From a virus, in the IMG/VR virus record IMGVR_UViG_3300032331_000248, positions 1 to 22,107 of that record: a stretch of 22,107 bases of DNA; one strand, written 5' to 3'. Every line of letters begins with the position of its first letter. Position 1 is the first letter of the stretch. The notes under the pieces were generated by a model. That model had not been told where the DNA came from. It was given only the letters and a program-made list of their open reading frames with translations, and searched no databases. Shown here one piece after another: positions 9,400 through 20,906 of the stretch. Position numbers and translations under genes: made by a program.

Positions 9400-11438
9400 T
9401 GTCCGAAGCATTTAAAACCGTAGAAATCCCAAATTTTGGGCCTGTTAACTTTCCCCTCACGATGTCGGATGACCAAGTTAATGCGGCCATCTTTAAGATC
9501 ACGCAAAGCCCGACATCTCAACCCGCAGTAGATAAAACGGTTGAATCCCCCGCTATGGTGCAAGGCCGCCAAGCCGACTTGTCCATGCCAAGCAAAATGG
9601 GTTTGGCAGCGGCTCAAGGTCTAACCTTTAACTTTGCACCAAAGATTGCGGGTGCGGGTGCTGCGGGGATGGACATCTTGCAACGTGGCTTTGATTCCAC
9701 TCCAACCGAAACTTACGCAAACACCCGTGATTACATCAAAGGCGTAAATGAGCAATTTAGGGAAACCAACCCCAAAACGGCATTTGCAAGCGAGGTAGTT
9801 GGTGGTTTACCACTTTTGCTCACACCTTTGGGAATGACAAGTAAGGCGAAGCAAACCGCAGAGGCGTTGTCAGCGGCCGAGAAAATGGCAATGGCCGCAA
9901 GAATGGCGGGCACGCAAGGCACGATTTCGGCCGTTGGTGCATCCGACATCAACCCCGTCACTAACCCTACAGAATACACTCAAGATATTGCCAAAAAAGC
10001 GGCAATTGCTGCCGCCTCTGGTGGTGTTTTATCGGGTGGTGGACAAGCCGTTTATAACGTGGGTAGCAATGTTGCACAACGCTACATCCCCGAAAGTGCC
10101 AAAGATGCGGCACGAATCAAACTTGCTCAAGCCTTACAACGTGGCTCAAGTGCGGATGGCTCAAACACCGTGTTAAGCCGTGTTGAGCGTGAAATGGGGT
10201 TAAACCCTAATGCAAGCATTGCACAAGCGGGTGGCCCGAGTGCGTTGGCTCAATTGGATGTGTTGGCATCGATGCCAGGCCAAGCAAAAACGCTTGTAGA
10301 GCGAAGAATTCGTGAACAACAAACATTTAGACCCGAGCGCCTTGCAAATGCCGCTGACGAGGCTCTAGGCACTCAAGGTAAGGGTTTCACGGCCACATTG
10401 GACGCATTGACTGCGGTTAAACAGGCCACATCTGCGCCTTTATACAAAAAACTTGAAAACGTATCTTTAAAGATTGACGATGAGTTGCAATCTTTGATTC
10501 AAGCCTCAAGGTCTGCGCATGGCAAAGCCGAGTTGTTGACCGAATTAAATAGAAAATTGCCACTTGATATATCCAAGCTAAAAGCGGGCGATGATGTCCC
10601 TCTTAATGCTTTAGACCTTGTTAAACAATCACTTTATGACATGGGCGAATCGGCCCGTGGCGAGTTTGGCAAAGCGACAAACACAAGCCGAGCATACGAT
10701 GATTTGCGAGTGGCATTGACAAAGAAACTTGAAGCCTTATCCCCTGCTGATAAAAATGGTTCAATTTACCGTCAAGCCTTGGACGCTTACGCTGGCCCAT
10801 CACAACTAGGCAATGCCGTTGTCAAGGGTAGAACGGCCATGAAGCAAGACGATATTGCTTTATCCGACTTGATGGGCAATATGTCGCCAAGCGAGTTAGA
10901 GGCTTTTCGCATAGGTGCGTTGCAGTCTTTGAAAGACAAAGTTGGCACGGAAGCGGGTCAAACGTCTTTATTGAAGATGTGGAAAGAACCCGCCACAAGC
11001 AATAGGCTTAAAGAGATATTTGGTGACAACTATCAAAAGTTTGCCCAAGAAGTTGCCAAAGAAGCTAGATTGAAGCCTTTAGAGCAAGTTGGTAGAGGCT
11101 CGGGCACGTTTTCTAGAATGGCGGGCGCGGAAGATTTAGGCGTCATGCCAACCACAATGGCTGCGGGCAAAGCGGTGGCAAGTGCGGCCACGGGTAGCCC
11201 AATGGCGGCTGCGGGCGAGGCGGTAAATGTTAAAAATAGGATTGGTCAAGTAATCAACCAAATGCCTGAGACAACACGCAATGAACTAGCTAAAATGTTG
11301 TTATTGCGTGGCCCAACGGGGCAATTAGAAGTAGAGAACACAGCGGCTTTGATTCGTGCTTTAAACCAACGATCAACGCAATTGCAAACGGGTGGTGGCT
11401 CAATAATTGGGCAAAATCTTGACCAATACGGCAGATAA
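9399..11438 (+). CDS. Putative internal virion (ejection) protein
   Basis: The 679-residue product has no enzymatic motif that I recognise. A short N-terminal domain (1-45, ending in MSDDQVNAAIFKIT) is followed by an Ala/Gly-rich hydrophobic helix region (about 66-95). A second hydrophobic stretch lies at about 125-135 (GGLPLLLTPLG), with Ala-rich helices to 230 that include GGVLSGGGQ. A long mainly helical region with many charged residues (235-560) and an Ala/Met-rich C-terminal part complete it. Gly/Ala-rich possibly membrane-active helices in a large helical virion-region protein are common in ejection proteins that form a channel across the host envelope. The start ATG overlaps the previous stop (TAATG), suggesting coupled translation and equal amounts of the two proteins. 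The role is inferred from position and composition. Confidence 0.55.
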   Translation: MSEAFKTVEIPNFGPVNFPLTMSDDQVNAAIFKITQSPTSQPAVDKTVESPAMVQGRQADLSMPSKMGLAAAQGLTFNFAPKIAGAGAAGMDILQRGFDSTPTETYANTRDYIKGVNEQFRETNPKTAFASEVVGGLPLLLTPLGMTSKAKQTAEALSAAEKMAMAARMAGTQGTISAVGASDINPVTNPTEYTQDIAKKAAIAAASGGVLSGGGQAVYNVGSNVAQRYIPESAKDAARIKLAQALQRGSSADGSNTVLSRVEREMGLNPNASIAQAGGPSALAQLDVLASMPGQAKTLVERRIREQQTFRPERLANAADEALGTQGKGFTATLDALTAVKQATSAPLYKKLENVSLKIDDELQSLIQASRSAHGKAELLTELNRKLPLDISKLKAGDDVPLNALDLVKQSLYDMGESARGEFGKATNTSRAYDDLRVALTKKLEALSPADKNGSIYRQALDAYAGPSQLGNAVVKGRTAMKQDDIALSDLMGNMSPSELEAFRIGALQSLKDKVGTEAGQTSLLKMWKEPATSNRLKEIFGDNYQKFAQEVAKEARLKPLEQVGRGSGTFSRMAGAEDLGVMPTTMAAGKAVASAATGSPMAAAGEAVNVKNRIGQVINQMPETTRNELAKMLLLRGPTGQLEVENTAALIRALNQRSTQLQTGGGSIIGQNLDQYGR

Positions 11439-18187: not shown

Positions 18188-18424
18188 TCAAAAATCGATG
18201 TCATCGTCCTTTGGCAATCCTTTGTAATCATCTTTGGGCTTTGGGGTGTTGAGATATGCCCAACCGTTCCAACCGCCATCCATAAGAGGCACACTGTCTA
18301 ATTTGAGCATTGGCCCGTTTTTAGTCTCAATGACCGATCCAATGATTTGATAGCGGGATTTTTCCACACCATCTTTGTTTTTGTATTTCCCATTGACAAC
18401 GGAAATTTCGTAAATTTTAGACAT
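18188..18424 (-). CDS. Mini single-stranded-DNA-binding-like protein with SSB-type acidic tail
   Basis: The 78-residue protein starts with strands typical of an OB-like barrel (MSKIYEISVVNGKYKNKDG, EKSRYQIIGSVIETKNGPML, KLDSVPL), has an aromatic patch GGWNGWAYLN (50-59) and ends in an acidic tail, KDDDIDF. The last six residues match the bacterial SSB C-terminal tip (DDDIPF in E. coli) at five of six positions. That tip docks SSB partners such as RecO, ExoI and PriA. The body is less than half the size of a usual SSB. It overlaps the exonuclease gene by eight bases and belongs to the same recombination module. The family is recalled from phages, where homologues often end in DIPF or DVPF. Activity itself is inferred. 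Confidence 0.65.
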   Translation of the reverse strand: MSKIYEISVVNGKYKNKDGVEKSRYQIIGSVIETKNGPMLKLDSVPLMDGGWNGWAYLNTPKPKDDYKGLPKDDDIDF

Positions 18425-19049
18425 TTTTGACTTTCATAAGTTTGTTAATTTTGTCGTCCAACTCGGCAAGGAATTGGACAATTTCGCCCTCTATTAGCCT
18501 GATAAACACATTGTCCCGTGGGACACGTTTAACAAACAATTGAAGCTCTTGGGGTAGGCGGTTATCGAAGCTGACGAAATCACACCATTGCCGCCCCGTA
18601 CAAGCCATTTGAAATTGCATCTGGGTGTTGTACTTGCCTGGTACTGCCTGACTAAGCAAAGTCTCAATGTGCGTGGCAGTGTTGGGGCATTTGATCTCTA
18701 ATAAGCCATCATCCCCCACAAGCCCATCGGGGGACGCACCCGCCATTTCAATCGTTGGGTGAGGGACAAACCCCACTTCATCGACTAACACGTTTTGGGC
18801 GACTTCATACGATATACGGGCAAGCGGCTCGGTTTCCGTTCCATGTTGCATTGCGGCATTATTGAAACTTTCTCCTTTTTCACCCGTTAGGCGTTCGCAC
18901 ACCAATTGAGCCATGTAGTTGTCACGGGTTGCGCTATAGCCCGTCTTGGTCTTGGCAATCACATCGGCCACACGGGATGCGGTGACTTTACCAATTCGTG
19001 CCTCAAACCATTGGTCAGACCCTTGGGATATTTCATGCAAATCGATCAT
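18417..19049 (-). CDS. YqaJ/lambda-type recombination exonuclease
   Basis: The 210-residue nuclease of the PD-(D/E)xK fold should degrade the 5' strand of DNA ends to create 3' single strands for annealing. Visible motifs: GKVTASR (20-26), AMQHGTETEP (66-75) with conserved glutamates, the catalytic SPDGL (Asp108) and LEIKCP (Glu118, Lys120), and QMQFQM (143-148). The start at 19049 (MIDLHEISQG) is chosen because AAAGGAAC lies just before it and the family begins here. An upstream in-frame start at 19109 would add 20 residues that belong to another reading frame of the HNH gene. It works with the Sak-type protein at 20352-20906 and the SSB-like protein downstream. Confidence 0.9.
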   Translation of the reverse strand: MIDLHEISQGSDQWFEARIGKVTASRVADVIAKTKTGYSATRDNYMAQLVCERLTGEKGESFNNAAMQHGTETEPLARISYEVAQNVLVDEVGFVPHPTIEMAGASPDGLVGDDGLLEIKCPNTATHIETLLSQAVPGKYNTQMQFQMACTGRQWCDFVSFDNRLPQELQLFVKRVPRDNVFIRLIEGEIVQFLAELDDKINKLMKVKNV

Positions 19050-19512
19050 ATAGTTCCTTTCTTTTAACTTGGTACACATTGCTTGCTTGTTCTGGAGTAT
19101 CAAATGCACCTAAATGTATTTGTTTTCCGTAAAATGAAATTCTTGCTGAAAACCTACCAGAACAATTTACACGCACACCCATTGGCAAATTGATTGTTCT
19201 TTTTCTGGTTTTATGATTCCAACTGTTTTCAGTTATTGTTGCTTTTCTTAAATTTTCAGGTCTGTCATCTAATGAATTGCCATTGATGTGATCTAGACAA
19301 GGTTTAGGCCATTCACCGTGTGTTAAAAAATACACAAGGTGACCACGTTTATATTTTTTCTTATTTAATTGAATAACCCAATAATGTTTGTTGCCTCTAC
19401 TTTTTTGACTAGAGCCAGCTTCTTTGTTTAACAAATCAGGGTGTTTTTTGGGTGGATTTATCCAATAAAATTGACCTGTTGATTTTTCAAAACGTAAGTA
19501 ATTTTCAATCAT
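19033..19512 (-). CDS. HNH endonuclease with AP2-like DNA-binding domain
   Basis: The 159-residue protein has an N-terminal domain with FYWINPPKK, the HNH core YKRGHLVYFLTHG (54-66), LDHINGNSLDDRPENLR (73-89: Asp74-His75, Asn87), and a C-terminal AP2-like domain (112-155: MGVRVNCSGRFSARISFYGK then HLGAFDTPEQAS). This pairing is typical of free-standing phage homing endonucleases. The gene is clearly richer in A and T than its neighbours, a sign of separate origin. Its ends are well adapted: ATG overlaps the preceding stop (ATGA) and its last codons carry the exonuclease ribosome site and start. It may mobilise itself between phages by cutting relatives that lack it. Confidence 0.88.
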   Translation of the reverse strand: MIENYLRFEKSTGQFYWINPPKKHPDLLNKEAGSSQKSRGNKHYWVIQLNKKKYKRGHLVYFLTHGEWPKPCLDHINGNSLDDRPENLRKATITENSWNHKTRKRTINLPMGVRVNCSGRFSARISFYGKQIHLGAFDTPEQASNVYQVKRKELYDRFA

Positions 19513-19712
19513 GTGTTTTTCTCCTTGAGTTTTGCTTCAATAGCTTTAACCAAATCTTTAAAGTTGCCACCTTCTTCCCAATCAATCTCATCCTCATCCG
19601 TCAGCCCTACCCACTCACGCTCAGGCAACGGATGCCCTGCTTGTTTGTAGGCTTCATCACGCCACAGTTGTGCTCGTTTCCTGTGGTACTCACAGTTTGG
19701 GCAGTCAGTCAT
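19509..19712 (-). CDS. Small early protein with CxxC start and WVGLTDE motif
   Basis: The 67-residue protein begins MTDCPNCEYHRKRAQLW with one CxxC pair, then contains EWVGLTDEDEIDW (33-45) and ends in EAKLKEKNT. The WVGLTDE block and the C-terminal octapeptide are shared with the larger protein at 19933-20322, at both protein and DNA level, so the two genes share a duplicated or recombined module. The codons for the Lys-Glu tail (AAG GAG) form the ribosome site of the next gene. Function unknown. Confidence 0.6.
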   Translation of the reverse strand: MTDCPNCEYHRKRAQLWRDEAYKQAGHPLPEREWVGLTDEDEIDWEEGGNFKDLVKAIEAKLKEKNT

Positions 19713-19936
19713 GCTTGTCCCCTTGCTCGGATGTTGTGTGCAACCAAAGCAGAAAAGTTATGTTCTAAGTCTTGTCCAACATATTGGTCTGCAATCTTTG
19801 CACACGCCTCACGTTCATGTTGTGCGACTAGCTTGGCAAAGCGTTCGATAAATTCTGGTGGAATTTTCACATTGGGTATGTGTTCACAGCTTTTATACGC
19901 CCGTCTAGCTATCTGAATGATTTCATCATTTGTCAT
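19709..19936 (-). CDS. Small early protein of a widespread phage family (EREACAKI motif)
   Basis: The 75-residue product has MTNDEIIQIARRAY at the start, FIERFAKLVAQHEREACAKIAD in the middle (29-50) and ends in AHNIRARGQA. The pattern EIxxxAREA ... FAxLVxxxEREACAKIC ... AAxIRARG is very common in small proteins from phages of Proteobacteria and has no known function. Starts and stops overlap neighbours as ATGA on both sides. AAGGAGAA from the upstream gene's last codons serves as its ribosome site. Confidence 0.65.
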   Translation of the reverse strand: MTNDEIIQIARRAYKSCEHIPNVKIPPEFIERFAKLVAQHEREACAKIADQYVGQDLEHNFSALVAHNIRARGQA

Positions 19937-20322
19937 GTGTTCTTCTCCTTGAGTTTGGCTTCAATGTAGGCCACGATTTCAGATGGGTTGACCCAACCAA
20001 TCTCTTCTTCCCTGTTGTCGTGCCAAGTATCAAACGCTTTAATTTCCTCATCCGTCAGCCCTACCCATGTGCGCTGTGGTGGGGTGGTGTAGAGCGGGTA
20101 GAGAGTGCCTTCGTCATACGCATCATCAGGCGGTTCAAACAAGTCCAAGCAAGTGTGCGCATGATTGACTTCATACATCCACGCCACAGGCTCATCCTTC
20201 GCTTCTAATGCGGTTTTAATAGCGTCAATAGCAATTTGCCATTCCGCTTGGCAACCACAACAATCGGGGGGAGTAGGGCCAAGCGCATCCAACGCCAATT
20301 TAATTACTTCATTTTTGGTCAT
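19933..20322 (-). CDS. Early protein with PLYTTPPQRxWVGLTDEE motif
   Basis: The 129-residue protein starts MTKNEVIKLALDALG, has a CCGCQAEWQIAIDAIKTALEA segment (21-42 region) and the signature TLYPLYTTPPQRTWVGLTDEE (about 73-93), then ends EAKLKEKNT. Proteins with a YPLYTxPP block followed by LTDEEI are abundant in phages of Proteobacteria; their function is unknown. Start choice: two adjacent ATG codons at 20325 and 20322 follow AGGA by three and six bases, so 20322 is favoured. A longer in-frame start at 20403 lies inside the Sak gene and is unlikely. It shares two DNA blocks with the gene at 19509-19712. Confidence 0.6.
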   Translation of the reverse strand: MTKNEVIKLALDALGPTPPDCCGCQAEWQIAIDAIKTALEAKDEPVAWMYEVNHAHTCLDLFEPPDDAYDEGTLYPLYTTPPQRTWVGLTDEEIKAFDTWHDNREEEIGWVNPSEIVAYIEAKLKEKNT

Positions 20323-20351
20323 CATTTTTCCTATTTCACGTTTACGCCACA

Positions 20352-20906
20352 TTAAAGTTTTGCCTTGGCTTTGTCCTTGGCGGCTATCACTTTCATTTGC
20401 CAAGCCTTGTCACCATCACAAGCTGAATAAGCCACTTTGTAAGCTAACTTGAGTTCATCTTGTGTAGTGGCTGCTTCTATGGCTTTGAATAGCTCTGTCA
20501 TGCTCTCATCGTCAATGGTTGACTCGGGTTCAGCACCGTCAGGCAAATCCTCACCCGCATAGATGTACAACCCAAGGCCATGCAAGCTAAGTGCTTTAGT
20601 CATGCAACGCATGATGGCGGTATTGACTTGGAAAGCATCGGGGCTTTGGATGGCCTTGTTGCGGTGATCCATCACGGGCAATTGACAAGTCATTGGCTTG
20701 TCAAACATAACAACCGTAACCCACACCATTGCCGTGCCGTTTATGTCCATAAAGCATTTATCGCCAAACGTATTGACCGCAAAAGTAGCTTTTGGATCGG
20801 CTTTGAGTGCCTCGGCCCATGCCCAAGCCCATGATAGGTAGGTTAGGTTGGCTTTTTTCTCTGTATGCTCATTGACATTGAGTTTGAGTAATTCTTGGAC
20901 GTTCAT
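20352..20906 (-). CDS. Sak-type single-strand annealing protein (DUF1071)
   Basis: The 184-residue protein should bind single-stranded DNA and anneal complementary strands, as Rad52-like phage recombinases do. It has the family's opening LTYLSWAWAWAEALKADP (21-38), a central beta region with GTAMVWVTVVMFDKPM, then SPDAFQVNTAIMRCMTKAL (88-106) and HGLGLYIYAGEDLP (108-121). A helical C-terminus (130-184) with many charges may contact partners. It is in the same operon as the YqaJ exonuclease and the SSB-like protein, giving a complete phage recombination set, though separated from the exonuclease by four small genes. AAGGAAGA in the upstream gene's last codons gives its ribosome site, with an ATGA overlap. 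Confidence 0.88.
   Translation of the reverse strand: MNVQELLKLNVNEHTEKKANLTYLSWAWAWAEALKADPKATFAVNTFGDKCFMDINGTAMVWVTVVMFDKPMTCQLPVMDHRNKAIQSPDAFQVNTAIMRCMTKALSLHGLGLYIYAGEDLPDGAEPESTIDDESMTELFKAIEAATTQDELKLAYKVAYSACDGDKAWQMKVIAAKDKAKAKL

Follow-up and report, generated by a model that had tools for sequence, protein, structure and literature searches.

The window, the whole 22,107-nucleotide stretch of viral DNA that was analysed, carries on its minus strand the small open reading frame at 18188–18424 reported by the first-pass annotation; its length of 78 residues and its ending in DDDIDF were both confirmed, the C-terminus of the translated product reading KDDDIDF. The gene lies downstream of, and on the same strand as, that for a Sak single-strand annealing protein (SSAP), and the stop codon of an exonuclease gene (18417–18419) falls within its start, giving an overlap of 8 nt. 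The relevant features, all on the minus strand, are as follows.

18188..18424, minus strand: gene for the 78-residue protein with a tip like that of single-stranded DNA-binding proteins (SSBs); ATG at 18422–18424, TGA at 18188–18190, the span including the stop codon.
18242..18424, minus strand: body, residues 1–61, with strands predicted by AlphaFold2 at residues 3–15, 21–34, 37–42 and 57–59.
18209..18241, minus strand: short linker, residues 62–72 (KPKDDYKGLPK), delimited from alignments.
18191..18208, minus strand: acidic C-terminal tip DDDIDF with penultimate Asp, six residues of the translated ORF.
18417..19109, minus strand: YqaJ / lambda-type exonuclease (PF09588, 3e-28; TIGR03033, 5.1e-21; phrog_149, 1.9e-49).
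19033..19512, minus strand: HNH endonuclease (PF13392, 1.7e-8), between Sak and exonuclease, a neighbour outside the function proposed below.
20352..20906, minus strand: Sak SSAP (PF06378, 4.6e-43).

The distance between Sak and the small gene differs among relatives, as if HNH-like genes come and go. Two further minus-strand ORFs of the window, at 19509–19712 and 19933–20403, have in common a C-terminal segment ending AKLKEKNT (BLASTP E 2e-9), perhaps, to judge by that likeness, through local duplication of a domain without known function.

A scan of viral contigs undertaken from the window protein yielded 410 related stretches, the best 80 of which, by likeness to the window, are termed the near loci; equivalent scans from three relatives yielded 30, 26 and at least 80 loci, while a pattern search of viral contigs with the relative from MW202512 returned no confirmed relative, and bacterial and archaeal genomes, when scanned, gave two loci, both in Xenophilus. 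With the exclusion of loci in which the contig ended before the reading frame did, the scan loci together with four named phages provided 219 members with a stop codon, corresponding to 142 distinct proteins, of which 140 were counted after L081 and L117 were set aside. Hosts named in the matching phage records include Pseudomonas, Bordetella, Shewanella, Sulfitobacter, Methylophilaceae and Microcystis. Among 49 aligned members Y14, K22 and G29 are invariant, M1, G12, G19, G37, P46, G51, G54, P61 and F78 are kept in at least 90%, and R24 and Y25 are the majority residues in the family. The tail that follows the body varies from 12 to 78 residues (median 22; 140 proteins) and in many of the longer relatives includes a Q-rich linker ahead of the tip, as in SSB, a feature near-absent in the window's own clade (77–80 residues). 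Net charge is positive for the body in 125 of 140 proteins and negative for the tail in 133 of 140. Values of pN/pS calculated from 43 distinct DNA sequences of 49 members with 78 codons were lowest in the body (0.138) and linker (0.144), higher in the tip (0.201) and highest in its last four codons (0.306); taken with the synonymous codon variation, these values indicate that the tip is under purifying selection, looser than that acting on the body.

The resemblance of the tail to that of SSB, which the first-pass annotation had staked on its conservation in relatives, extends throughout the family. An acidic tail with terminal Phe occurs in every one of the near loci (80/80; best 80 of 410), and Phe is the last residue of 128 of the 140 distinct proteins, Tyr and Leu of one each, with at least two acidic residues among the last eight in 125 of the 128 that end in Phe. 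The near-locus tips (best 80 of 410) comprise IDF (47), IPF (21), LEF (4), MDF (3), APF (3) and LPF (2), a distribution biased in favour of the tip found in the window, since PKDDDIDF was among the six patterns searched and loci were retained according to their similarity to the window. The remaining 10 of the 140 members (L084, L090–L094, L097, L100, L108 and L113) carry an IPF-, LPF- or VPF-type tip followed by 7–12 extra residues, so that Phe is not terminal; these residues may be a newly acquired tail or the outcome of a frameshift or of stop-codon loss.

The tip of the 78-residue protein is not due to chance. A filter demanding terminal Phe with at least three acidic residues in the five before it, strict enough to miss the SSB of phage HK620 (NDYPPF), was passed by 2 of 306 mechanically called ORFs of at least 60 residues from the window, the MEP301 record and HK620 bases 1–38000, namely the window's 78-residue ORF and MEP301 gp50, which is annotated as ssDNA-binding. 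Applied to 2492 ORFs of the near loci (best 80 of 410), the same filter was passed by 76 family ORFs and 4 others. When the SSB profile phrog_44 was run over 25 phage records, both of its two matches (W03 11152–11298, E 5e-7; G057 48549–48656, E 2e-4) overlapped the C-terminus of a family member, at profile positions 187–235 and 191–235 and extending slightly beyond its stop.

A different 96-residue protein, ending LEDDLPF and annotated as ssDNA binding, is encoded by Methylophilales phage MEP301 (L234 32075–32365, minus strand) between RusA and the terminase small subunit; it has no Pfam match. Small phage proteins with SSB tips may occur in several families.

With respect to the body, the first-pass annotation had considered it too small for a standard OB-fold SSB and had proposed structure prediction. 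The size argument holds at the level of sequence, in that neither the window protein nor any of the 49 members contains a PF00436 domain, and it fits the AlphaFold2 models, which predict four strands, where a canonical OB barrel has five, both for the window protein (mean pLDDT 83.0, pTM 0.60) and for a 99-residue relative (pLDDT 77.8, pTM 0.52); oligomers of the body might still build an OB-like barrel. A PDB fold search with Foldseek gave no match at E ≤ 0.001 for either model, and VIA-align against the PDB no convincing match (best Z 2.1 and 4.1), while five matches at E ≤ 0.001 in BFVD were all to small phage proteins without a named function. Pfam yielded no family at E ≤ 1 for the window protein and no match at E ≤ 0.01 for any of the 49 members, PF05037 (DUF669) matched neither, and NCBIfam, PHROGs and PDB sequences gave nothing significant for the body. 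Marginal matches of single members to NCBIfam SSB profiles (E 0.0055 and 0.009) extended to the C-terminal ends of those two profiles, and a single member matched phrog_44 (E 0.0003). PHROG 18187 was matched by 37 of the 49 aligned members at E ≤ 0.001, the window protein alone giving E 0.015. Alignment of the family by hhalign gave matches of only 9 and 10 columns to one canonical SSB, and a probability of 0.3 to the HK620 SSB. Nothing in the Pfam, PDB sequence and PDB fold searches links the body to a known ssDNA-binding domain; its fold is left unassigned, which does not prove it new.

A YqaJ exonuclease like that of the window lies directly upstream in all 80 near loci (best 80 of 410), some of these genes being cut by the locus end. 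Across the 219 loci, 207 have an ORF of at least 90 residues close upstream or overlapping, with an overlap of exactly 8 nt in 80 of the 207, nearly all of them in the near clade. The RecE-like exonuclease phrog_434 is matched by 23 of 44 representative upstream ORFs; the matches of others are to annealases of the Erf, RecT or Bet kind, to RusA or to a helicase. In named records the family gene follows Bet plus exonuclease in one, ERF plus YqaJ in another, and a helicase in a third, there standing one gene ahead of a CHC2 zinc-finger (primase-type) gene, and elsewhere it is found between Rad52 or ERF and NinB. The gene annotated as a diguanylate cyclase in Methylophilaceae phage P19250A (L229 3361–4014) matches the YqaJ exonuclease family (PF09588, 9.6e-20) and precedes a family member ending DLPF.

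The strongest evidence for an SSB role is that the family gene alternates with canonical SSBs in one genomic slot. In phage MW202710, whose Sak is 69% identical to that of the window over 158 of 184 residues and whose exonuclease bears only a distant likeness to the exonuclease of the window (E 0.026), that exonuclease gene is followed by a 128-residue PF00436 SSB (1.5e-25) ending DDDIPF. The slot was sampled, over 1.2 kb downstream, in MW202710 and 24 viral loci found by means of the MW202710 exonuclease rather than the small gene. Eight of the 25 contained the family gene, 10 a canonical PF00436 SSB (485 nt away in L250), seven neither and none both; the probability of 0.006 for zero overlap ignores the relatedness of the loci, which include near-copies and one (L238) from the same contig as a family member (L182). 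The SSB ORFs of L251 and L252 match the family HMM at 7e-5, probably via linker and tail. Of the seven loci with neither gene, three of which have less than 400 nt downstream, four carry a pentapeptide-repeat gene, a fifth has RdgC immediately after the exonuclease, and the last two are L253, which is cut short, and L259; a RdgC-like ORF lies further on in two of the four pentapeptide-repeat loci, the contig end cutting the other two. In L240–L244 the SSB slot is occupied either by a pentapeptide-repeat gene, with RdgC beyond it where the contig reaches, or by RdgC directly; Pfam matches were obtained for L244 (RdgC, PF04381, 1.7e-77) and L240 (pentapeptide repeats, PF00805, 6.7e-27), the others being judged by likeness. 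PF00436 is also absent from all 44 virus records bearing the family gene (19 + 25, PS-1 being in both), a result of little weight because many of these are fragments and because one canonical SSB matched only 1565 of 50,697 phage records.

On these sequence and positional grounds, the 78-residue protein is probably (at about 0.7) the phage's own minimal SSB, the third member of a module comprising exonuclease, Sak and SSB; its binding of ssDNA, its oligomerisation and the partner of its tip are what we infer from such evidence. Phage DNA ends would first be resected by the YqaJ exonuclease, and the strand thereby exposed would be coated by the small β-sheet body, probably as an oligomer, via conserved aromatic and basic residues, candidates being the invariant Y14 and K22 and the majority residues R24 and Y25. 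With the body on DNA, the acidic tip ending in Phe would be freed to dock Sak, and perhaps the exonuclease too, so that coated strands could be annealed in the course of recombination and concatemer formation. The functional label is not wholly new, since public records already call distant relatives SSB: 5 of 16 label them ‘single-stranded DNA-binding protein’, as does MW202512, the evidence behind the label not being visible. A search of mainly open-access literature turned up no publication that describes the family, how it alternates with SSB or how its tip varies.

The same arrangement could be produced by an adaptor that does not bind ssDNA, the body docking the exonuclease or annealase and the tip tethering it to an SSB-tip pocket elsewhere, so coupling resection to annealing. 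The 8-nt overlap with the exonuclease stop and the lack of any recognised DNA-binding fold in the body would both suit such a protein, but it is an unlikely reading given that in some loci an annealase, RusA or helicase gene, not an exonuclease, precedes the family gene, and that the family gene alternates with true SSBs in one slot.

The first-pass annotation had singled out the penultimate Asp as a change from the usual Pro. The change is real and far from singular: 94 of 133 C-terminal family tips have penultimate Pro, the other 39 having Asp, Ala, Glu, Gly, Ser, Thr, His or Asn, so that the window's Asp is a recurrent variant (the 133 include L169, L170 and L175, ending DVPF, and omit 10 rows with internal tips). 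Parsimony required at least 18 switches between Pro and non-Pro, 6 of them forced by well-supported branches, on a poorly resolved tree (64 columns; 6 starred among its 105 inner branches). Pro and non-Pro tips are also found on identical bodies, in three sets. Origin of the window's DIDF by deletion from DIDLPF, seen in L036 and L039, was a further conjecture, for which the tree is too poorly resolved. All 10 canonical SSBs in the phage slot end PF, and DDDIPF is the ending of all 29 readable SSBs from 30 genomes of one bacterial family, the remaining one being cut by a contig end. As a cause of the change, the type of Sak encoded upstream was rejected (Fisher p 0.54): for the 61 near loci with at least 1500 nt upstream, those with and without a full-length Sak match numbered 14 vs 4 for Pro tips and 29 vs 14 for non-Pro tips. 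Pro versus non-Pro does not therefore track Sak type, and no partner of the change was found.

Two reports indicate what this Pro does in Escherichia coli: in SSB113 (P176S) binding of YbcN is removed or weakened while lambda Orf is still bound (PMC4118853), and the Pro-to-Ser change is described as disrupting interactions between SSB and its partners (PMC10018359). As the family tip freely loses Pro, we infer that phage partners are likelier readers of it than the host set is. Given that Pro is repeatedly lost whereas Phe and the acidic character persist, the Asp most likely reflects tuning to phage partners.

The same observations tell against the decoy that the first-pass annotation had suggested beside a mini-SSB, read here as a protein that would fill the SSB-tip pockets of host ExoI, RecO, PriA and HolC and thereby disable repair or replication in the host. 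The tip does look like the bacterial one ending DDDIPF, but the examined members sit in recombination or replication modules, the Pro whose change in SSB113 affects YbcN and other partners is frequently lost, and the same slot is taken by canonical SSBs that bear tips of their own; a decoy is accordingly very improbable, and between the two suggestions it is the mini-SSB that the retained tip, the exonuclease and annealase neighbours and the alternating canonical SSB support. That the protein is a degrading descendant of a canonical OB-fold SSB from which half the domain has been lost, as its SSB-like tip and the linker of its relatives might suggest, is scarcely credible for a body under purifying selection that has no Pfam match in any of 49 members and aligns with a canonical SSB over so few columns.

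A bolder extension of the minimal-SSB reading can be offered only tentatively, and is rather doubtful: that many phage recombination modules have exchanged the OB-fold SSB for a distinct minimal ssDNA-binding fold, four-stranded and not of the OB type, with a phage-private tip, constant in Phe and acidity but free to lose Pro, that recruits the annealase while partly avoiding host readers of the tip. SSB tips are the hub through which ssDNA summons repair and recombination proteins, and the many natural variants recorded here offer a ready test of which residues are read by annealases and which by host proteins. Were the protein an SSB, its 78 residues would be unusually small for a natural one and could provide a compact genome-editing partner for Sak- or Bet-type annealases, and a function would be given to a family without a Pfam model.

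Among known systems, PHROG 18187, which has no assigned function, is matched by most aligned members (37/49), though the window protein itself gives only E 0.015. The tail of gp2.5 ends in Phe. According to PMC5686142, T7-type phage SSBs (gp2.5; Enc34 ORF6, DUF2815) have an acidic C-terminal tail, as does the 78-residue protein; by way of contrast, their bodies are OB-folds, with 179 modelled residues in Enc34 ORF6, and no similarity of sequence or structure to the 78-residue protein was found. Another parallel is the SSB of HK620 (HkaK, of the DUF669 / N4 gp45 type), likewise encoded by a phage gene beside an annealase gene and with an acidic tip, whose last six residues (NDYPPF), according to PMC5928155, are required for recruiting Sak4 to coated ssDNA and for most of the stimulation of Sak4; it differs in having 195 residues as against 78 and in showing no detectable sequence relation. 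In staphylococcal phages, as PMC5499656 describes, Sak works with its cognate Ssb. The 78-residue protein would suit the scheme of these two precedents, with a far smaller body that shows no relation to theirs. Relative to canonical PF00436 SSBs such as the 80alpha Ssb beside Sak and the MW202710 SSB, the 78-residue protein has no PF00436 domain, a body of about half the size, a short linker and Asp in place of Pro, yet it resembles them in its acidic tip ending in Phe, its genetic position and its presumed job with Sak.
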